A stretch of 64,000 nucleotides of DNA from an uncultured Bacteroidia bacterium (GTDB lineage: Bacteria > Bacteroidota > Bacteroidia > Bacteroidales > Prolixibacteraceae), in the NCBI GenBank assembly GCA_903902325.1, contig CAIUUO010000066.1, positions 1-64,000 of the forward strand, in the 5' to 3' direction. Under the pieces are notes generated by a model that was not told the DNA's origin, searched no databases, and saw only the letters and a program-made list of their open reading frames with translations. Shown piece by piece: positions 10,812 to 37,503 of the stretch. Within the stretch, counting starts at the first letter, position 1; each line of letters starts with the position of its first letter. The position numbers and the translations under genes were made by a program.

Positions 10812-13800
10812 TCAGATAATGAATTCATCAATAGTTTTCAAAAATATATTAATTTCCAGAGGTTTGGTAATGTACCTTTTTGCACCAAGTTCAGTTAGCT
10901 TTTCTATTTGCACTTGCATTGCATCGGCACTGATTACTACAACCGGAATATCCTTTGTTTCCTCATTGGTTTGCAACATTTCCAATACCTCGCTACCATG
11001 AATATCGGGTAGATTTAAATCCAGAAAGATCATATTCGGCCGGTATTCAAGTGCCAAGGGTATGGTATTCAATCCCAATGGGTCAGTTACCAACTGTATT
11101 TTAGGGCGTTGAGAAGATAGAATCTCCCGAACCAATGCAACATTGGATGCATTATCCTCTATATACAGAATGAGACCTGACTTGTCAGCATCTTTGGCGA
11201 TTAATTCTCCATAAGTAAGGATCTGGTCTCTGCCCTTTTTTATGGCTTCACAAATTGGGAATTCTATCCAGAAGGTACTCCCCTCTCCTGGGACACTCTC
11301 CACCCCAATATTTCCTCCCATTGCCATGGTCAATTTCTTGACAACCGCTAAACCCAGCCCGGTACCTTCTGTATCTGACTTTTCAGCCCCAATACGCTCA
11401 AAGGGATTGAAAAGCTTAGAGATATTGGCTTCTAATATTCCAATGCCTGTGTCAATCACCGAGATCCTAACCATAACAGTTCCATGGCCACCTTGCGGTA
11501 TCACCCTGCTTTCAAGAAAAACCCTTCCGCCATTCTTGTTGTACTTGATTGCATTGTTAAGCAAATTTAGCAATATCTGTTTAAGCCTTTGCTTGTCGGC
11601 CATAATATAAATCAATTGATTTGGTATATCAATGAATTCAAGTTGAATTTCCCTCGCCTTTGCCTGATGTCCCACAAGGTCAAACATTTCGTTAATAACT
11701 TCCTTGATTAGGACTGGTTCCAGTGAGAGGTAGAGGTGACCGGCTTCAATTCGCGAGATATCAAGTACTTCGTTGATCAGATCGAGCAGGTGCTTCCCGC
11801 TTCGCATGATGTAGTTAACCCCCTTTTTTTGTCCCGGATTAAGATCCCCCAACTCCAGCAATTGTGCAAATCCTAGAATGGAGTTCATCGGTGTGCGTAA
11901 CTCATGGCTCATCCTGGACAAGAACTCACTCTTGGCAACATTGGCCATTTCTGCTTCATAACGTGCACTGACTGCTTCTTCTTCAGCCTTTTTCCGTTCG
12001 GAAATATCAATCATTGTACACAAAAAATATCTGATGCTTCCGATAAAAATTGCATCGCTCGAAATCAAAATATTTTTAATGGTTCCATTCTTGGTGCGCA
12101 CCTTGATCTCCTCTTTTCTCACGGGAATGTTGTTCCTCAGACTATTTTTGATCCTGTGTCTCAAATCCTCATCCACAAAAAGATCCAATTCCTGGACCGT
12201 CTTCCCGATGACCTCCTCCCGTGAATATCCAAGGGATTCACTAAACTCGCTGTTTATATCAAAGAAATAACCGGTTTCAAATTCTGCCAGCGACATCATC
12301 ACGGAATTGGCCTGAAATGCCTTGGAAAATTTCTGTTCGGATAATTCAATCTGGGAAATGTCTTTGCTCACGCCAAATATAACAGACTGGTTGTTCCAAA
12401 AACCACGCTTTACCCTTGTCTCTACTGAAATTTGACGGCCTGACTTACTTACGATCGGCACAGGGCAAAAATCTGCTGTCCCGGCAAGCATTTCTCCCAC
12501 AATCCTACCTGCTTCATCTCTCCGTGCCGCTGGATGAACCAACAGAACAGATTTTCCCATGAGTTCCTCTGCGCTGTATTCCAGTCGATTACTAACTGTC
12601 GAATTGACGTGAATGATATTTCCGGTCTCGTCAAGTACCCAAAGAAAATCATCAATGGTATTGAAAAAGGTTTCATAATTCTGGCGCGTCTGTTCGAGCA
12701 AAAATTCCGCACGCTTGTTGTTGATCAGACTGGCCAACATTGCGCTCCAGACCCTCAAAATATTAACTTCTGCATCCGAATATTCCTTTTGGAGGAAAAC
12801 GGAATCCAATCCGACGAAACCTATCAGACTGTTTTCTGAGTACATTGGGATAACAATCAGTGATTGTATGCCCTGAGGTTCCAAAATTTCCCTTTCTGCT
12901 TTCCAACTTTCGGGCAGATCTTTAACTGATTGAATCAAAATATTCTCCCTTCGTTCAAGCGTTTCCATCCATTTTGGAAGAGCTTCAATGGAAATATCCT
13001 GAAGATTTTCTATTTCTGGGTTGATACCTTCATTGCACCACTCGAAAGTATTGCTGAAAGTTTTATTGTCATGATTGAATTCAAAGATATAGGCCCGGTC
13101 TGCATTCAGAAACCGACCTATCCGATCCAATGATTGATTGAGTGCATGGTCTATTTCCGGCAATGGAATCCCCGTGAGTTTGGGAGACATATGCAGTAGT
13201 TCATTTTCAAAGCTTTCAGCCTGCTTTTGAATGGTAATATCCCAATTGGTACCGATCACCCGTAAAGCATGGCCGGATGTATCACGTTCGACGGCGGCCA
13301 GGGCTCTAACAAAATGTATGGACCCATCAGGCCATACTACCCTGAACTCAGTATCAAACTCTTTTTCGCCACGAATGGCCATCTGAATTTCTTCATCACC
13401 CCGAATCTTGTCATCCGGATGCAGACCTTTCAGCCAGGCATCGTATGCATTGCTAAAATTTTCTTTCCTGATTCCGTAAATGGCGAACATCTGATCGTCC
13501 CACACCAGAAGATTGTGATCTACATCATAATCCCACACGCCGATACCGCCAGCACGCAATGCCAGGTTTAACCGCGAAGACATTTGCTCCAATGACTCCT
13601 CGACCAGTTTACGGGCCGTAATATCATGGTAATTCAGCAAAATGCCATTAATAACTTTATCATTGATCAGATTGGTCGCTGTAAGCTCAATAGGCTTATA
13701 ACTTCCATCCTTGCACAGGTATCGGTATTCAACAGTTCTTGCCGAGTTATCAACTTGAACGAGCTCATAGAATTCATTTTGTATTCGTTCCAAATCATCA

Positions 13801-15161
13801 GGATGAACCGTCGACCAGCTGCTGGAACCAATCAGGTCTTCGGGCTGCCAGCCAAAATATCTTGTGATATTCGGACTCTTGTAGCTCATAACTCCATTAA
13901 CTTCAATGACACCAATTACGTCTGAAATATTGGCTATCATGGAAGTGTGCTTGATTTCGCTGTCACGCAGGGCCGTTTCAGCCTGCCTGCGGTCGGTTAT
14001 ATCCTGCAGGGTTCCATAGGTACCGGTAATTTCACCTTTTTCGTTTAACGCAAGGCGGGCAAATACCTCAATCCACCGGAAACCACCTGATTTCGTAAGA
14101 TACCTGATTTCGTGCCGGCAATATTCTTTTTTTCGGTTAATTAAAGGCTCAAATAGCTCCCAATTCCGCACACGGTCATCGGGATGCACATAATTGATAA
14201 ACAATTGCCCGATTGATTCCTCCAATGTGAATCCCGTTATTTCAGTCCATGAATTATTCAGATATACCCATAAACCTTCTGCATCCGTGTAGAAAATAAC
14301 CTCACGGATATTTTCTACGACTGTCTTGTATTTACTTTCACTTTCCAGAAGGGCAATTTCAGCCCGGTTTCGATCTTCTATCTCTTTCCGCAGGTTTTCG
14401 TTCGTTTGGCCCAATTGGGCTGTCCTTTTCTGAATTAGAACTTCAAGGTTCGCATTTAAATTTAGAATGTCATTTTCTGTTTCCTTTCTTTTCGTGATAT
14501 CTTGTTTGACAGCAATATAACTGGTGATAATTCCATTTTCATCATGAACGGGAGTGATTGAAACGGTCTCCCAGAACAGCTCTCCACTTTTCTTTTTACT
14601 GAGCCATTCACCGTGCCATTCGAGTCCTTTGGTGATTCTATCCTGCATTTGTGTATAAAGATCATCTGGAGTCTCTGCCGGCTTAAGAATATCTATAGAC
14701 TGGCCAATTACTTCCTCTGAAGTGTATCCTGTTGTTTCAAAAAAAGCCCGATTTGCATATTCGATATGGGATTTTAAATCCGTAATAATAATTGAAACCG
14801 GACTCTGTTCAACAGCCAGAGAAAGTTTCTTTATCTCAATTTCATTTTTGACCTTTTCAGTAACATCCCTGCTTAAAACCAACACCCTATCATCATCCAG
14901 AGGTACAATCCTGGCCTCAAAATGGGAACTGGCTGATTCTGGCAGACTCACTGCATAGGTTACCGTGGTTGGTTCTTTAAAAAACAATACTTTACTGATT
15001 TTGTCCTGGAAAAGAATCGCCAACTCATTGTTGAAGACCTCCCGAATATTACTCCCAATAATTTTCTCCATGGGAATCAATAATTTCGTAGGATCAGCGG
15101 CGAAAAATTCCTTGTAATTACCCTCTTTTGTCAACACAAAAATCAGATCCGGAATGGCCAT
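10812..15161 (-). CDS. PAS/GAF multi-domain hybrid histidine kinase (C-terminal part of a split gene)
   Basis: The frame opens at an ATG and encodes 1449 residues. Seven PAS-like units are visible, with a coiled coil after the second and a GAF-like domain (around 670-840) before the sixth. HisKA follows, with the histidine near 1084 in SRMSHELRTPMNS, then an ATPase domain (NLLNNAIKYN, GTGLGLAVVKK) and a C-terminal receiver (D near 1380 in IFLDLNLPDIHG, K in YITKPLEI). No membrane segment is seen. Upstream, the same frame continues through 17 sense codons (ADEEKIRKQNERLNAII) to a TAA and then directly into the preceding PAS gene, so this is most likely the 3' part of one larger gene. The ATG at 15161 sits inside a PAS helix and is a doubtful natural start. 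Confidence 0.85.
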   Translation of the reverse strand: MAIPDLIFVLTKEGNYKEFFAADPTKLLIPMEKIIGSNIREVFNNELAILFQDKISKVLFFKEPTTVTYAVSLPESASSHFEARIVPLDDDRVLVLSRDVTEKVKNEIEIKKLSLAVEQSPVSIIITDLKSHIEYANRAFFETTGYTSEEVIGQSIDILKPAETPDDLYTQMQDRITKGLEWHGEWLSKKKSGELFWETVSITPVHDENGIITSYIAVKQDITKRKETENDILNLNANLEVLIQKRTAQLGQTNENLRKEIEDRNRAEIALLESESKYKTVVENIREVIFYTDAEGLWVYLNNSWTEITGFTLEESIGQLFINYVHPDDRVRNWELFEPLINRKKEYCRHEIRYLTKSGGFRWIEVFARLALNEKGEITGTYGTLQDITDRRQAETALRDSEIKHTSMIANISDVIGVIEVNGVMSYKSPNITRYFGWQPEDLIGSSSWSTVHPDDLERIQNEFYELVQVDNSARTVEYRYLCKDGSYKPIELTATNLINDKVINGILLNYHDITARKLVEESLEQMSSRLNLALRAGGIGVWDYDVDHNLLVWDDQMFAIYGIRKENFSNAYDAWLKGLHPDDKIRGDEEIQMAIRGEKEFDTEFRVVWPDGSIHFVRALAAVERDTSGHALRVIGTNWDITIQKQAESFENELLHMSPKLTGIPLPEIDHALNQSLDRIGRFLNADRAYIFEFNHDNKTFSNTFEWCNEGINPEIENLQDISIEALPKWMETLERRENILIQSVKDLPESWKAEREILEPQGIQSLIVIPMYSENSLIGFVGLDSVFLQKEYSDAEVNILRVWSAMLASLINNKRAEFLLEQTRQNYETFFNTIDDFLWVLDETGNIIHVNSTVSNRLEYSAEELMGKSVLLVHPAARRDEAGRIVGEMLAGTADFCPVPIVSKSGRQISVETRVKRGFWNNQSVIFGVSKDISQIELSEQKFSKAFQANSVMMSLAEFETGYFFDINSEFSESLGYSREEVIGKTVQELDLFVDEDLRHRIKNSLRNNIPVRKEEIKVRTKNGTIKNILISSDAIFIGSIRYFLCTMIDISERKKAEEEAVSARYEAEMANVAKSEFLSRMSHELRTPMNSILGFAQLLELGDLNPGQKKGVNYIMRSGKHLLDLINEVLDISRIEAGHLYLSLEPVLIKEVINEMFDLVGHQAKAREIQLEFIDIPNQLIYIMADKQRLKQILLNLLNNAIKYNKNGGRVFLESRVIPQGGHGTVMVRISVIDTGIGILEANISKLFNPFERIGAEKSDTEGTGLGLAVVKKLTMAMGGNIGVESVPGEGSTFWIEFPICEAIKKGRDQILTYGELIAKDADKSGLILYIEDNASNVALVREILSSQRPKIQLVTDPLGLNTIPLALEYRPNMIFLDLNLPDIHGSEVLEMLQTNEETKDIPVVVISADAMQVQIEKLTELGAKRYITKPLEINIFLKTIDEFII

Positions 15162-15215
15162 GATGATTGCATTGAGCCGTTCATTCTGTTTTCTTATTTT
15201 TTCCTCATCTGCTTA
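15162..15215 (-). other. In-frame TAA plus 17 open codons joining two PAS gene halves
   Basis: Reading the minus strand from the upstream gene, the frame runs VNIDVSGK, TAA (15213-15215), ADEEKIRKQNERLNAII, then MAIPDLIFV of the downstream gene, with no frame change. The 17 codons form the charged helical linker typical between PAS domains. One base change at the stop (for example CAA or AAA to TAA) accounts for the interruption. Confidence 0.9.
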
Positions 15216-18200
15216 TTTTCCCGAAACATCAATATTCACACCTCTCAGCCTGACAAGCTTATCATCCTTGAACTCAGGTACGATATTGTTTTGTACCCAA
15301 CTATAGTGCTGATCCGGCATCAGAACCCTGATATCATACTCAACAGACTTGTGAGTCTTGATCATTTCGAGGTACTTTATATCTACTATTGGTAAATCTT
15401 TCGGATGAACCCTGTCCAAAAAGTATTTAGTCTTCATTTCTGTTCCTTCCGGAACCCCCATAATTTTGTAATAATTCTCCGACCAGTTAAGAATACCGGA
15501 TTCTGTTTCCAACTCCCAACTGCACATCTGAGCAATTTTTTGTGCTTCGTTCAACTCGGCCTCTCGTTTTATCAAGGCGTTTTCTGCAATCTTTCGGTCA
15601 GTAATGTCATGAATAATGGAGTATAGCAAAGGCGTACCTCCAAATTTTATCGGACATGAATATACTTCCACATCACGTATCTCACCATTGCCTAAAAGAT
15701 GCTTAAATATGAAATTGCTTCGCTTTTCCGCCTTTGCTGATTGCATCTCCCGGTGTATCTCACTTTTTGAGAGCAAATTGATTTCGGAAATATTTTTTCT
15801 ACGCAATTCCTCGTAGGTATATTTATAATAATTACAGGCAGATGAATTGGCGTCTTTAATCTCGCCCGTTTCAGGGTCCACAATGATCATGACCGAATGA
15901 TTCTTCTGGAAAATTGATTTGTATCGCTCTTCACTTTGCTTCAATTCCTCCAATGCAAGCATACGTTCCGTGATATCTTCCTTGACGGCCAGGTAATGGG
16001 TTATCTTTCCTGCCGAGTCCAAAATTGGTGAGATTACAGCTGATTCCCAGTACAAGGTTCCATCTTTCTTCTTGTTGTGAAATATGCCATGCCAGTGATT
16101 ACCAGCCGATATTGAATCCCAGAGATGAGCATATTCTTCATTGCCCGTTTCGCCTGATTTTAAAATACGCGTATTTTGACCAATCAACTCATCCTCCGAA
16201 TAACCTGTTGCTTCAAAAACCTTTGGATTGGCGTATTCGATATTGCCTTTCAGGTTGGTAATAACGATACTGACAGGACTTTGTTCGACCGCTCTAGAAA
16301 GCTTACGGAGCTCATTTTCAGCCAGTTTTCTATCATTAATGTTGGTCATAGAACCGGTAACACCGATGACTTTGCCTTCTTTCAAAATGGGTGTGGTTGA
16401 AGAACTCACCCATCTGGATTGCCCATCATTTGAGAAAACCCTGAATTCAACATTTAAATAATCGACCTGACCAAGAGTTGACAAAGCCTCATAAATCATG
16501 GGTTTATCTTCAGGAACCAAGTAATTGAAAAGATTGGTCCGGATCAATTCCTCAGGAGTATAACCCAATATTTTCTCAATCGAAGGGCTCACATAATTGA
16601 TGATTCCTTCGCTGGTTATTTCGTAAATAGCGTCATTCACTGTTTCTACCAAATGACGGAAATTTTCTTCGCTTCTCCTGAGCTTTGCTTCTATAAACAT
16701 CCTTCTTGAAATGTCTCTGGTGATAAACACCATACCTTTCGACTGGCCATCTGCACGTCTGATAAATTGTCCGTTTACCTCAATATCGAATGTGCTGCCA
16801 TCGCGCCTGAGACCTTTGTACTGTGCTGACCCGAAATATTCGCCTCTGAACATTTTCGCCAAATTCGAAATAGCCCTGGATTGATCACTTTCAGCTATAT
16901 ACTCAATTAGGTGGTGGTTTATAACATCATCATGATGTTCCATTCCAAACATCAATTCCATATTTGGAGACGAGAACTGTATTCGTCCTTCCAAATCTGT
17001 AATAGTAATAACATCGGGCGATGCAATTAGTATGGACCGGTACAAGTCTTCACTCTTTTGAAGTTCTATTTCGAATTTTTTCTGTTCATTGATATCGATC
17101 AGCGTTCCAATTGTATGCACCTGATAACCATCCTGGTCAATGACTTTAATTGATTTACGTAACCATTTGATTTCGCCAGATTTTGTAATAAAACGGTATT
17201 CTTGATGCTGCGACAAATTTTCTTTTGTATTTGTCAATAATTTATTCTTAAGCGTTGGCTTGTCAGCTTCATATACGAAATCGAAAATATTTTTCCCTAT
17301 AAGTTCAACATTCCTAAAACCTAAAATATTCTCAACGACCGGACTTATGTAACTGATTGTACCATCACCTGCCATTTCATAAATGACTTCATCGATTGTT
17401 TCCACCAAATTTCGAAACAGCTCTTCATTCTTTTGCAGGGCATGCTCCATCTCCTTTCTATCCGAAATATCAACCAGCGTTCCGATTCCACCCATGAATA
17501 CACCATCTTTCATCCTGGCTTTTGTAGAGAACCTGATCCAGTGAGGTTTGCCGTCCTTTGCTACGATCTTATATTCCCGTTCAATTTCACCACTTAATGA
17601 AAGTTCAACAAATCTTTGAGCCAAATATTCTGCATTCTCACCTGTAAATTGAAGAAAGGATTTACCTATAAGTTCATCCTGTGAAAATCCAACCAGGTTT
17701 TGTATCGAAGGACTGATATAGGTAATTATGCCTTTGGTGTCTATCTCAAGAATTACATCATTGATGTTTTCGATCAGGTAGCGGTAATTCTTTTCACTTT
17801 CCACGAAAGTCTCAGTTGCCCGGCTCCGTTCAATTAAATTGCTGAGCTGCCGCGCAATTGCATGCAACATGTCTTCCTCTTCATTTAAAAAGGGTTTTTC
17901 TGGATTAAAAAGTTCACTCCTCAAATAATTTACCTCAATGTACCCGCCATTTTCTCCAAAAAAAATCAAATCCTTCGTAATTGACCAGTTGGTATGCGCA
18001 AAATTATCAGAGTGGCAGATCAGATCATCTACACAAACAGACACTGCCGTTAAGGCAGGGAATTGCAAGACATCAGGAATCATCGCAACGATTTCCTTCA
18101 GAACCTCATGGATTGTAAACAAAGGATTATTAGTAATCTCAGAAATCCGTTTATAACAATTCAATTCTTTTTCTCGTGTACCTAGCAATGACTCCAGTCT

Positions 18201-18311
18201 TTTCAACTCCTGATTTTCCTGTTTATGCAAAACGCTCAAAGAATCCAAGGTTTCTTTTACTGCTGTCTTCTCAAGGGGAAGTACATCTTTTGTTTTGTTC
18301 CTGGTTTTCAT
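15213..18311 (-). CDS. Multi-PAS sensory protein (N-terminal part of a split hybrid kinase)
   Basis: 1032 residues with no kinase or output domain. A charged coiled-coil N-terminus (about 25-60) is followed by a GAF-like segment (about 50-165) and seven consecutive PAS/PAC units, from about 168 to the end. Each unit starts with a helix such as SEKNYRYLIENINDVI and ends with an (I/V)DI(S/T)(D/E)RK-type PAC linker. Ligands cannot be predicted. The protein stops right after the seventh PAC strand, exactly where a linker helix should follow, and that helix is encoded in frame beyond the TAA. The product would therefore be a truncated input module unless the stop is read through, restarted or a sequencing error. 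The ATG at 18311 is the only good start. Confidence 0.85.
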   Translation of the reverse strand: MKTRNKTKDVLPLEKTAVKETLDSLSVLHKQENQELKRLESLLGTREKELNCYKRISEITNNPLFTIHEVLKEIVAMIPDVLQFPALTAVSVCVDDLICHSDNFAHTNWSITKDLIFFGENGGYIEVNYLRSELFNPEKPFLNEEEDMLHAIARQLSNLIERSRATETFVESEKNYRYLIENINDVILEIDTKGIITYISPSIQNLVGFSQDELIGKSFLQFTGENAEYLAQRFVELSLSGEIEREYKIVAKDGKPHWIRFSTKARMKDGVFMGGIGTLVDISDRKEMEHALQKNEELFRNLVETIDEVIYEMAGDGTISYISPVVENILGFRNVELIGKNIFDFVYEADKPTLKNKLLTNTKENLSQHQEYRFITKSGEIKWLRKSIKVIDQDGYQVHTIGTLIDINEQKKFEIELQKSEDLYRSILIASPDVITITDLEGRIQFSSPNMELMFGMEHHDDVINHHLIEYIAESDQSRAISNLAKMFRGEYFGSAQYKGLRRDGSTFDIEVNGQFIRRADGQSKGMVFITRDISRRMFIEAKLRRSEENFRHLVETVNDAIYEITSEGIINYVSPSIEKILGYTPEELIRTNLFNYLVPEDKPMIYEALSTLGQVDYLNVEFRVFSNDGQSRWVSSSTTPILKEGKVIGVTGSMTNINDRKLAENELRKLSRAVEQSPVSIVITNLKGNIEYANPKVFEATGYSEDELIGQNTRILKSGETGNEEYAHLWDSISAGNHWHGIFHNKKKDGTLYWESAVISPILDSAGKITHYLAVKEDITERMLALEELKQSEERYKSIFQKNHSVMIIVDPETGEIKDANSSACNYYKYTYEELRRKNISEINLLSKSEIHREMQSAKAEKRSNFIFKHLLGNGEIRDVEVYSCPIKFGGTPLLYSIIHDITDRKIAENALIKREAELNEAQKIAQMCSWELETESGILNWSENYYKIMGVPEGTEMKTKYFLDRVHPKDLPIVDIKYLEMIKTHKSVEYDIRVLMPDQHYSWVQNNIVPEFKDDKLVRLRGVNIDVSGK

Positions 18312-33024: not shown

Positions 33025-36000
33025 TTAATATATTTTACCGGTAATGAATTCAATATTGATAATGGTCTGGTTGTAATTGTTGAGTGCATCGAGATAAGCC
33101 TGCTTGATGCTTAAGGCCCTGCTCAGGCTAAGCACATAGTCGAGATAATCCAGGGCGCCAGCCTTGTAGCTCCTCACAGACTGATCGATGATCATGCCGG
33201 CTTCAGGCACTGCCTGCTTTTCGTAATACTCAACGCTTTCCCTGTATTTCTCAAATTCATCCAGCAAAGATTGGTATTTTCCCTTCAGGGTACTGGAATA
33301 ATAACCTTCGTTGGCGATTGCGACTTGTTCTTTTACCCTGGCTGCCTTAATTTTTGAGGTAAAGGGTGAAAACCACAATGGAACAGAAATGCCTGCATGA
33401 ACACCTGTGAACCGGTCGCCGACGCCGAAAGTCCGCGGGACACCATTCACATCCTGAGTTCCCTGCATGGTTTGGCTAAAATAGCCAATGCTGAAATCGG
33501 GCAAGGCACGGCTCTGTTCCAGTCTTTTTTCAAGGCGCACAATTTCGACCTGCTGTTTGATTTGTTCCAGTTCGGGGTTTGCTTGCAAAGCGGTGCTATC
33601 GTGTGCAGGGACATATCCGATCCGGAACAAAACAGTATCTGCCGGAGAAACCGCAGAGCCGGTATTGAGTAGAGTTTGCAACTGGCGGTTCAAGATTCCG
33701 ATGTCGGCTTTTATTTGCTGCAACTGATTTTTGATTTCCAGACTTTGAGAACTGGCAGTGATCATTTCGAGTTTGTTGGTCTCTCCTGCCCTGGCCCTTA
33801 GTTCAGCGGCCCTCTTGAACCCTGAATAGAGGCTGTCCTGATACAACCACAATTTATATTTTGAATTGAGGTAGGTCAGTTGCCAGTATACCTGTTTGAC
33901 CCGGGTGGCTATTTCGATCCTTGACGATTTCAACTGCAACTCGCTGCTCTTTACGCTTGCTTCTGCCAGTTTGTTCTGATTTATGTAAACAGTTGGAAAG
34001 GCAAATGATTGGGTAACCGTAAAACTGTTGTCGCTTGAGTATGAATTAAACTGACCGAACTGGCCATCGATGGATATTTTCGGAATGTCCCATGATGCAC
34101 CTTTCAGGGCTCTTTGAACATCCACGGAATAAACTCCTGCACGTACATTCAGGTTACTGTCCAAAGCCATTCGGATTGCATCATGCAGATTGATTCTCCT
34201 TGCATCGCGGGCGCTTGCTTGATTAATACCGGACAATCCGATGGTAAGGAATAAAATGACCGAAATTACAGTCAAAGATTTCCGACTGGATTTCCGTCGT
34301 GACCTTTTTGAAGAGAAAATCACATAAAACACAGGAAGTACAACAAGAGTCAGGATTGTAGCAGTAACCAAACCTCCTATGACCACTGTTGCCAGCGGTT
34401 TCTGCACCTCAGCACCTGCGGAGGTAGAAATTGCCATCGGCAGGAAACCAAGTGAGGCCACCGAAGCAGTCATGATAACAGGACGTAAACGTGATTGCAA
34501 CCCTTTCAGCACACGCTCGCTCAAATCTGTAATACCATCCTTTTCAAGCCTGTTGAATTCTGCAATCAGAACAATTCCGTTGAGGACGGCTACTCCGAAC
34601 AGGGCAATAAATCCAACCCCTGCGGAAATTGAAAAGTTCATGTTTCGCATCCATAGCGCCAGAACTCCACCGATGGCCGACATGGGAACTGCAGTAAAAA
34701 TAAGCAGCGTTTGCCACACAGAATTAAACGTAAAGAACAGGAGTACGAAAATTAAGAGCAATGCGACAGGAACTGCAATTGACAATCTCGCTTTTGCCGC
34801 TTCAAGGTTTTTAAACTGACCACCATAAGAGACAAAGTATCCCGCCGGAAGTTTCACCTGTTTATCAATTTTAGCTGATACATCCTTAATGACACTTTGA
34901 ATATCCCGGCCTCGCACGTTGAATCCGATGTTGATCCTTCTTTTGGTATTTTCCCTTGAAACCTGGGCAGGACCTGATCTGATCGAAATATCCGCAACCT
35001 GCTCAAATGGGATTTGTCCGCCGTTTGGCAGGGCAACCGTGAGGTTTTTAACGTCATCGAGGCTTTGCCGGTAATCCTTGTCCAGCCTGACGATCAACCC
35101 AAAACGTTTTTCGCCGTCATAAACCACCCCGGCCTGACTGCCGGCAAATGCAGACCTTAACACACGGTTGGCATCCCCAACTGAAAGACCATACTGGGCA
35201 AGTCTGTCGCGGTTGTAATCGACCTGTACCTGGGCAAGTCCGGTAATTTTTTCTACATTGATATCTTCCACGCCCTCTATATTTTGAATTATTTTTTCAA
35301 CCGAAGATGCCTTATCAGCCAGTACATCCAGGTCATCACCAAAAATCTTAACGGCAATATCCTGTTTCGATCCCGAAAGCAATTCGTTAAAGCGCATTTG
35401 AATGGGTTGCTGGAATTCAAATTTCACTCCGGCAAGCGGAATCAGCGCTTCTTCCATTTTAGAAACCAGTTCTTCGCGTGTTTTGGCAGATGTCCATTCA
35501 CGCTTAGGCTTCAGGGTAATGATATAGTCACCTGTTTCCATTGGAGTAGGATCAGTAGGAATCTCACCGGATCCTATTTTGCACACAGCATGGATGATTT
35601 CAGGAAAATTTGCCAGCAATATTTTATTGGCCTTCTGTACAGTCTCCACAGTATTTGAGAGAGATCCACCCTGCAAAGTCATGACTCCTGCAGCCAAATC
35701 TCCCTCTTCTAGTTGCGGAATAAATTCTCCTCCCAGACTTCCAAACAGGAATAAACTTGATATAAATAAGAGAATGGCTGAAACGGATACCAGGATTTTA
35801 TTCCTTAGCGCATATAATATCACCGGATTGAAGATCCTCTGAATAAAATCCATGAACCTGTCTGAAATATTCCGCTTGCGCTCTGTTTTTTTACTCAGGA
35901 ACAAGGCTGAAGCCATCGGCACATAAGTCAGTGACAGAATCGTTGCTCCAAGAAGAGCAAAAGCCACGACTTGCGCCATCGGGCGGAACATTTTACCCTC

Positions 36001-37416
36001 GATGCCAACCAGGGCGATAATCGGGAGATAAACAACCAGGATGATGATTTGTCCGAAAGTTGCAGAACTCATCATGCGTTTAGCCGATTCGAAAACATTT
36101 TCGTCCATCTGTTCCTGCGAAAGGCGTTCAACACCCTGGTGGTGGTGCTTGCTCATAAAGATTCTGTGTACAACTCCCTCTACGATGATGACGGCGCCGT
36201 CAACAATCAGACCGAAGTCAATGGCACCCAAACTCATCAGGTTACCCGAAACACCAAACAGGTTCATCATGGTAATGGCAAACAGCATGGCAAGCGGAAT
36301 TACCGATGCAACGATTAGACCGGCACGCATATTACCGAGAAGCAACACGAGAATAAAGATGACAATCAGGGCGCCTTCAAGCAAATTTCTCGTGACAGTT
36401 CCAATGGCACGACCAACCAAATCAGAACGATTCAGGAATGGTTCGATCTTAACACCTTTTGGCAACGATTTCTGAATTGTGGCAATGCGATCGCTGACAT
36501 TGTTATTGACCTCATTTGCATTGGCGCCTTTAAGCATCATGACCACACCGCCTACTGCTTCGGTCGTATCAACCACAAAGGCTCCGTAACGGGTAGCACT
36601 GCCGTACTGTACTGTTGCGATATCCCTGATCAAAACGGGTATTCCCGAAGCATTTGATTTAACAACAATCTTCTCAATGTCATCAATAGTTTTCACCAGA
36701 CCAATTCCACGGATGAAATAGGCATTTGGTTTTTTATCAATATAGGCGCTGCCGGTATTTTCATTGTTCTTTTCAAGGGCTGTAAAAATGTCTGTCAAGG
36801 TAAGGTCCATGCCTCTCAGCCTTTCGGGGTTGACGGCGATTTCGTACTGCTTGACATAGCCACCATAGCTGTTTATATCGGCTACTCCCGGTGTTCCAAG
36901 CATTTCCCTTCGGACTACCCAATCCTGCAAGGTTCGCAACTCCATGGGGTTGAATTTCTTCTCCAATCCTTTATCTACCGCAAGCCTGTACTGGAAAATT
37001 TCGCCCAGACCGGATGAAAGGGGAGCAAGTTCAATTTTAGCCAACCCGGCAGGAATGACTTCTTCAGCCTCCTTTAAACGTTCGCTCAATTGTTGGCGCG
37101 CCCAGTAAAGGTCAATATCATCATCGAAGACAACCGTTACTACGGATAGTCCCAAACGGGAAATGGAGCGGAGTTCTATGATACCGGGAATATTGGCTAC
37201 TGCCACCTCAATGGGTGCCGTGATAAAGCTTTCAACCTCCTGCACTGCAAGTGAGGGTGCCAGAGATATCACCTGAACCTGGTTATTGGTTATGTCGGGG
37301 ATCGCATCAATGGGCAAACGAGTTATGGCATATGTTCCCCAACCAATCAAGGCAACGACAAAAAGTCCGATGACGAATTTATTCCTGATTGAAAAATGAA
37401 TAATACGTTCTATCAT
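33025..37416 (-). CDS. Heavy-metal RND transporter fused to a TolC-like outer-membrane channel (CusA/CzcA-CzcC fusion)
   Basis: 1463 residues. Residues 1 to about 1040 form an HME-type RND pump (MIERIIHFSIRNKF start; SLGAIDFGLIVDGAVIIVEG in TM4; large periplasmic loops). A basic linker is followed by a second signal-like hydrophobic segment (around 1050-1070, VISVILFLTIGLSGINQASA). Residues about 1075-1463 resemble the outer-membrane factor CzcC/TolC (INLHDAIRMALDSNLNVRAG; SYKAGALDYLDYVLSL). Such fusions are known in Bacteroidota; whether the polypeptide is cleaved at the internal signal is open. The frame opens at a TTG (37431), but the ATG at 37416 is the family start. Confidence 0.9.
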   Translation of the reverse strand: MIERIIHFSIRNKFVIGLFVVALIGWGTYAITRLPIDAIPDITNNQVQVISLAPSLAVQEVESFITAPIEVAVANIPGIIELRSISRLGLSVVTVVFDDDIDLYWARQQLSERLKEAEEVIPAGLAKIELAPLSSGLGEIFQYRLAVDKGLEKKFNPMELRTLQDWVVRREMLGTPGVADINSYGGYVKQYEIAVNPERLRGMDLTLTDIFTALEKNNENTGSAYIDKKPNAYFIRGIGLVKTIDDIEKIVVKSNASGIPVLIRDIATVQYGSATRYGAFVVDTTEAVGGVVMMLKGANANEVNNNVSDRIATIQKSLPKGVKIEPFLNRSDLVGRAIGTVTRNLLEGALIVIFILVLLLGNMRAGLIVASVIPLAMLFAITMMNLFGVSGNLMSLGAIDFGLIVDGAVIIVEGVVHRIFMSKHHHQGVERLSQEQMDENVFESAKRMMSSATFGQIIILVVYLPIIALVGIEGKMFRPMAQVVAFALLGATILSLTYVPMASALFLSKKTERKRNISDRFMDFIQRIFNPVILYALRNKILVSVSAILLFISSLFLFGSLGGEFIPQLEEGDLAAGVMTLQGGSLSNTVETVQKANKILLANFPEIIHAVCKIGSGEIPTDPTPMETGDYIITLKPKREWTSAKTREELVSKMEEALIPLAGVKFEFQQPIQMRFNELLSGSKQDIAVKIFGDDLDVLADKASSVEKIIQNIEGVEDINVEKITGLAQVQVDYNRDRLAQYGLSVGDANRVLRSAFAGSQAGVVYDGEKRFGLIVRLDKDYRQSLDDVKNLTVALPNGGQIPFEQVADISIRSGPAQVSRENTKRRINIGFNVRGRDIQSVIKDVSAKIDKQVKLPAGYFVSYGGQFKNLEAAKARLSIAVPVALLLIFVLLFFTFNSVWQTLLIFTAVPMSAIGGVLALWMRNMNFSISAGVGFIALFGVAVLNGIVLIAEFNRLEKDGITDLSERVLKGLQSRLRPVIMTASVASLGFLPMAISTSAGAEVQKPLATVVIGGLVTATILTLVVLPVFYVIFSSKRSRRKSSRKSLTVISVILFLTIGLSGINQASARDARRINLHDAIRMALDSNLNVRAGVYSVDVQRALKGASWDIPKISIDGQFGQFNSYSSDNSFTVTQSFAFPTVYINQNKLAEASVKSSELQLKSSRIEIATRVKQVYWQLTYLNSKYKLWLYQDSLYSGFKRAAELRARAGETNKLEMITASSQSLEIKNQLQQIKADIGILNRQLQTLLNTGSAVSPADTVLFRIGYVPAHDSTALQANPELEQIKQQVEIVRLEKRLEQSRALPDFSIGYFSQTMQGTQDVNGVPRTFGVGDRFTGVHAGISVPLWFSPFTSKIKAARVKEQVAIANEGYYSSTLKGKYQSLLDEFEKYRESVEYYEKQAVPEAGMIIDQSVRSYKAGALDYLDYVLSLSRALSIKQAYLDALNNYNQTIINIEFITGKIY

Positions 37417-37503
37417 AACGGGAAAAATCAAATTAATACAAGTTAATACAAGACTTTTTTCACCTTCAATAACAAATTGCGGAGGTGACTCGATTCCAAT
37501 GTA

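Follow-up and report, generated by a model that had tools for sequence, protein, structure and literature searches.

A probable recent nonsense change in a giant multi-PAS hybrid histidine kinase gene

On the minus strand of the window, the whole stretch of 64,000 nucleotides of DNA analysed here, positions 18311 to 10812 form one reading frame of 2,500 codons. These comprise 2498 sense codons, one internal TAA at 15213-15215 and the final stop; there is no frameshift, and the internal TAA is the sole interruption. A plain ORF call turns this frame into two proteins, one of which is a sensor that lacks an output; the ancestral unit, as argued below, is a single kinase some 2,500 residues long. 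A preliminary description of this DNA had reported the interrupted frame, its length, the coordinates of both ORFs and the 17 linker codons between the stop and the second start, and all of these are confirmed. It left four explanations of the stop side by side: a recent pseudogene, a sequencing error, a readthrough switch that makes both an input-only and a full-length protein, and a real split into two interacting chains. Is the TAA a lesion in a single gene, and if so, is it a young one? Or, are there two proteins here that work as a pair, or a stop that is sometimes read as sense?

The features of the locus are collected in Table 1. The predicted product was cut at its PAS exit motifs and every piece was scanned against Pfam. 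All 14 of the PAS pieces passed the Pfam cut-off, and matches were also obtained for one GAF domain, HisKA, HATPase_c and Response_reg. Two GAF-like regions, about fourteen PAS units, a kinase and a receiver had been proposed earlier; the PAS units, one GAF, the kinase and the receiver now stand on Pfam matches, while the first 172 residues match no Pfam family and are called GAF-like by inspection only. The first half does indeed have no output domain, as it consists of this N-terminal region and PAS 1-7. The second ORF, which begins at the first in-frame ATG past the TAA (15161, minus strand), carries HisKA, HATPase_c and a C-terminal receiver in one chain, the combination that characterizes a hybrid histidine kinase. 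Motif strings that we take to be the H box with its phosphoacceptor His, the N, G1 and G2 boxes, and the Asp and Lys of the receiver were all located in the kinase half.

Table 1. Features of the interrupted kinase locus and of the gene downstream of it, by position in the window
Feature	Coordinates	Strand	Description
First half, 1032-aa ORF, ATG start	15213..18311	-	GAF-like N-terminus followed by PAS 1-7; output domain absent
N-terminal coiled and GAF-like region	17796..18311	-	no Pfam match
PAS 7, directly before the TAA	15216..15599	-	PAS_3, 44.9 bits
In-frame TAA	15213..15215	-	at the lysine position of the motif that closes PAS 7 (DVSGK-stop)
17 linker codons (ADEEKIRKQNERLNAII)	15162..15212	-	PAS-PAS linker, conserved across relatives
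PAS 8 and linker, directly after the TAA	14844..15212	-	PAS_4, 35.3 bits
Second half, 1449-aa ORF	10812..15161	-	PAS 8-14, GAF, HisKA, HATPase_c, receiver
GAF domain	12708..13238	-	Pfam
HisKA and HATPase_c	11232..12014	-	Pfam; H-, N-, G1- and G2-box motif strings located
Receiver domain	10815..11228	-	Pfam
REC-HisKA-HATPase-REC gene, 547 aa	9127..10770	-	downstream of the kinase; recurrent neighbour of related giant kinases

The continuity of the frame is, on its own, weak evidence for treating both ORFs as a single gene, and adjacent same-strand genes can give it. On a hand-made list of 35 window ORFs, five (this gene included) run into more than 60 open codons of the same frame. It is not frame continuity that makes one gene of the two ORFs; they are one gene because the residues on either side of the TAA align without gaps to frames that are open in relatives.

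The segment after the TAA was searched against 61 genomes, the organism's own and 60 relatives, and 50 of them had a match. The search leads to long kinase frames in the relatives. Among 39 rows listed for the junction, 11 places in ten loci, counted as distinct relatives' places of at least 150 bits, align over PAS7-linker-PAS8 with 33-53% identity and are gap-free at the position of the TAA. The stop column holds lysine in all 11 of these, as part of the motif D-I/V-T-x-K-K with which a PAS unit ends. The count leaves out six rows that are the window itself, repeat rows for places already counted, and rows of lower score; a twelfth row of the alignment, also outside it, is the window with its TAA read as lysine. 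Lysine stands in the lower-scoring rows of the 39 as well, apart from an arginine in one and a gap in another, and none of them has a stop; the stop is present only in four copies of the window's own junction.

The picture is the same across the order. The junction protein was compared with 393 genomes of the order and 205 had a match. Lysine is found at the stop column in three places from this search (L125, L126 and L127), which with the 11 above make up the 14 best-matching places; in each of these an uninterrupted frame joins PAS7 to PAS8, and the position is occupied by lysine. The 18 order-wide rows listed have lysine in 15 cases and asparagine, methionine and arginine in one case each, with no stop. 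Only the window's own match has an internal stop among the order-wide matches listed, many of whose rows do not span the junction.

Three loci in genomes of the same genus also bear on the question. In genome G006 an ORF of at least 1333 residues (L030) has a window-like N-terminus followed by a window-like C-terminal half, and its residue at the position of the TAA is arginine; the frame ends with the contig, before the kinase. A 1840-residue ORF in the same genome (L031) has an open PAS7-PAS8 junction. In G004 the frame of L029, the 5' end of which is cut by the contig, passes the junction and reaches the receiver. A stop conserved with coding sequence on both sides was sought, and no relative's listed row has a stop at the position. 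Neither the junction searches nor the loci examined contain the same split, and a pair of independently conserved genes that share this stop and this start was looked for in the relatives and not found. On the evidence of these alignments we conclude that the two ORFs descend from one ancestral gene and that the TAA is derived in the window's lineage, because the relatives read open through the same point. The proposal that the ORFs are a single gene is thus strongly supported.

The surroundings of the gene were compared as well. Relatives of the downstream 547-aa gene, 38-62% identical to it, lie downstream of a related kinase in nine of the 29 loci examined, and three of these nine align over only its first 397 residues. 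At L075 the relative of the 547-aa gene comes after a second kinase, and a tenth locus (L057) has partial matches to it further downstream. Because the pairing recurs in nine of 29 loci, the giant kinase and the 547-aa protein probably act together, to judge from gene order. The pairing is not strict, since within the genus the nearest relatives of the 547-aa gene (in G003, G006 and G004) adjoin other kinases by their listed coordinates; synteny favours strict orthology without proving it. Elsewhere in the window, at 33025-37431 on the minus strand, a 1468-aa ORF combines an AcrB-type efflux pump domain (profile positions 1-1020 of 1021) with an outer-membrane efflux protein domain. Fusions of an AcrB-type pump with an outer-membrane efflux protein are known in Bacteroidota.

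Do other members of the family show a division of the same kind? The locus L027 (9791-17232), where ORFs of 930 and 1549 aa have a stop and start that overlap by one base, was considered as a natural split and rejected; it is a tandem pair of kinases, because each protein, on reading the sequences, has its own kinase region. At L073 an input-only protein adjoins a separate kinase with an N-terminus that looks unrelated by inspection. At L060 (3957-11871) an apparent frameshift lies inside a PAS elsewhere in the protein and leaves frames of 482 and 2159 codons, and L070 (3408-5930) stops just short of the kinase domain and has the look of a decayed gene; the window's stop occurs in none of these three. 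After the stop of L070 there is an apparent decayed remnant of a kinase. Two related loci thus carry different apparent lesions, and breakage at differing points is what recurrent loss predicts and a conserved split does not.

Internal stops were also seen in other matches. Among the matches listed from two family-wide searches, an N-terminal match (G082:C314:4292-4603) has one internal TAA and a match to the PAS12-GAF query (G133:C78:54049-54420) has one internal TGA. Both stops sit in parts of the protein other than that of the window's TAA. In the sister genomes G001-G007 a minority of the kinase matches listed carry internal stops, and some of these stop-bearing matches may bridge adjacent genes; others may belong to broken genes.

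How old is the stop? The TAA is probably recent, because the other 2498 codons of the frame are intact. The further stops or frameshifts of an older pseudogene are absent, and the frame holds one lesion in all. When unconstrained substitution was simulated (400 runs for each setting, with stops only scored), a second stop appeared after a median of 14 changes, with a 95th percentile of 57 changes, or 0.8% of 7.5 kb; with transition bias the 95th percentile was 88 changes (1.2%). With neither a second stop nor a frameshift in the frame, the gene, if abandoned, must have been given up only recently. Intactness fits the continued use of both halves equally well and does not separate abandonment from use: both halves are open with complete domains, and a functional split would look alike. 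The nearest relatives are too diverged to reveal a recent relaxation of selection in either half. A base rate comes from the available part of a survey of frameshifted genes in 1106 genomes, which gives 4010 pseudogene clusters against 146 cases of apparent recoding (PMC3711429). By analogy, that survey of frameshifts may serve as a rough guide for this stop.

We consider it likely that the TAA arose by a nonsense change, derived and probably recent, in a giant hybrid histidine kinase gene of the ordinary kind. A recent pseudogene is the best of the four explanations originally offered: the frames of relatives run through this position, the stop is a derived state and no further lesion has accumulated. 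The main rival is that the stop is an error of sequencing, assembly or strain consensus, the organism's gene being uninterrupted and the TAA an artefact of the draft, and we regard this as unlikely. The source genome is indeed a draft of 304 contigs with an estimated contamination of 1.83%, and the change is confined to a single codon of a frame that has no other stop or frameshift. The contig, however, is long (93 kb). Of 20 matches in this genome six are the window gene itself, and the 14 others, stretches of related proteins, contain no stops. Single substitution errors are rare in a short-read consensus.

Much less is to be said for a programmed switch, in which the UAA would sometimes be decoded to give an input-only protein together with the full-length kinase. 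The 1466 codons past the TAA are open, and the base that follows it is G, which lowers termination efficiency in E. coli reporters; yet in the same reporters UAA leaks less than any other stop, with a mean readthrough of 0.01-0.05% of control (PMC11126739, from the part of the text available). In-frame stops in bacterial genes are often found where purifying selection acts on the sequence, but most are short-lived and the vast majority are assumed not to be functional recoding, according to the accessible portion of another study (PMC7918605). The stop is retained in no relative examined. The draft genome has 45 tRNA matches, of which ARAGORN typed 43, and none of those typed reads UAA. An altered genetic code or a suppressor tRNA can be rejected within the draft, given this lack of a UAA-reading tRNA and the presence of two full-size release-factor genes. 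Their frames are 340 and 349 codons long, and there is a short one of 142 codons; RF1 and RF2 were not told apart. On the hand-made ORF list TAA terminates 19 of the 35 window ORFs, the first ORF of the interrupted gene included. With a stop that no relative shares and no tRNA found to read it, the suggestion of a readthrough switch loses its footing, and we judge it very improbable.

Under a functional split, re-initiation would allow a single operon to yield both an input-only chain and a kinase chain, and the two would cooperate. In its favour, the ATG of the second ORF lies 17 codons past the TAA at the edge of PAS 8, which leaves the domains complete, and none of the 11 aligned relatives has methionine at the start column, a weak hint at most. 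The family also includes one member that has no N-terminal half (L058), and a distant input-only protein that adjoins a separate kinase gene (L073; a 999-aa frame, 25% identical to the first half and a more distant relative). Against it, no relative examined has the split. At the 14 places compared, which lie in 13 related loci and are all open at the stop point, the first in-frame ATG, GTG or TTG comes 1-26 codons past that point, and in the window it is codon 18; counting ATG alone, the first one is 1-24 codons away in ten of the 14 places and 71-132 codons away in the other four. The second start would need no special explanation, because relatives that are open there carry starts at similar distances, and the idea that it is a special start was set aside for the same reason. 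No clear ribosome-binding site was noticed in the 30 bases upstream of the second ATG; genes of Bacteroidota often have none, so its absence carries little weight. With the split seen in no relative examined and the start at a distance that arises by chance, the two-chain reading fares poorly, and it seems to us improbable. That the stop has become fixed and is adaptive, with a GAF/PAS input protein parted at a PAS boundary from a working, re-initiated PAS-kinase, is very improbable. If it were true, a giant sensor would have become two interacting chains, their ratio set by translation, and any functional split would be a natural experiment on the passage of signals along long PAS arrays.

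What would a recent nonsense change do to this kinase? A single change would have struck the conserved lysine codon that closes PAS 7 of one giant hybrid kinase gene. Most ribosomes would then halt after the input half, and therefore the signal from the first seven PAS units could no longer pass to the kinase within a single polypeptide. Any kinase half that is produced would depend on weak re-initiation at the ATG, which lies 51 nt past the stop. The allele would most likely be one of lost or strongly reduced function, and within the population it may be short-lived or polymorphic. The second half resembles the naturally shorter L058, a 1344-aa frame, and because that kinase exists without an N-terminal half a second chain made by re-initiation might still have kinase activity. 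This is the main route by which the locus might keep partial function. As it stands, the locus is an example of the breakage of a large sensor kinase, of which L060 and L070 are other apparent cases. Among the papers listed in searches on kinase pseudogenes, the expansion of kinase families, pseudogenes or gene fission, and multi-PAS kinases, none appears to describe this gene.

The window gene is most likely an ordinary giant hybrid histidine kinase, and its stop no new kind of switch. Like it, the multi-PAS hybrid kinases found in its genus and family (L029, L030, L031, L060, L061, L063, L064 and L066) combine PAS arrays with HisKA, HATPase_c and a receiver, L030 being cut by its contig end before the kinase, and they match large parts of it, the parts varying from one kinase to another. 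Several share the PAS7-linker-PAS8 junction, and L060, L061, L064 and L066 also carry a relative of the downstream 547-aa gene. They differ in their numbers of PAS units, and all are open at the junction where it is present, whereas the TAA occurs in the window only. The in-frame stops described for prokaryotic genes likewise are single stops inside otherwise coding sequence; in the part of that study available, selection is demonstrated through closely related orthologues, whereas none so close was found for the window gene (PMC7918605). The young nonsense pseudogenes of bacteria, as described in the accessible part of Kuo and Ochman 2010 (PMC2916853), resemble the window gene, whose change is putatively inactivating, in having a single such change, relatives that are intact and no further decay.
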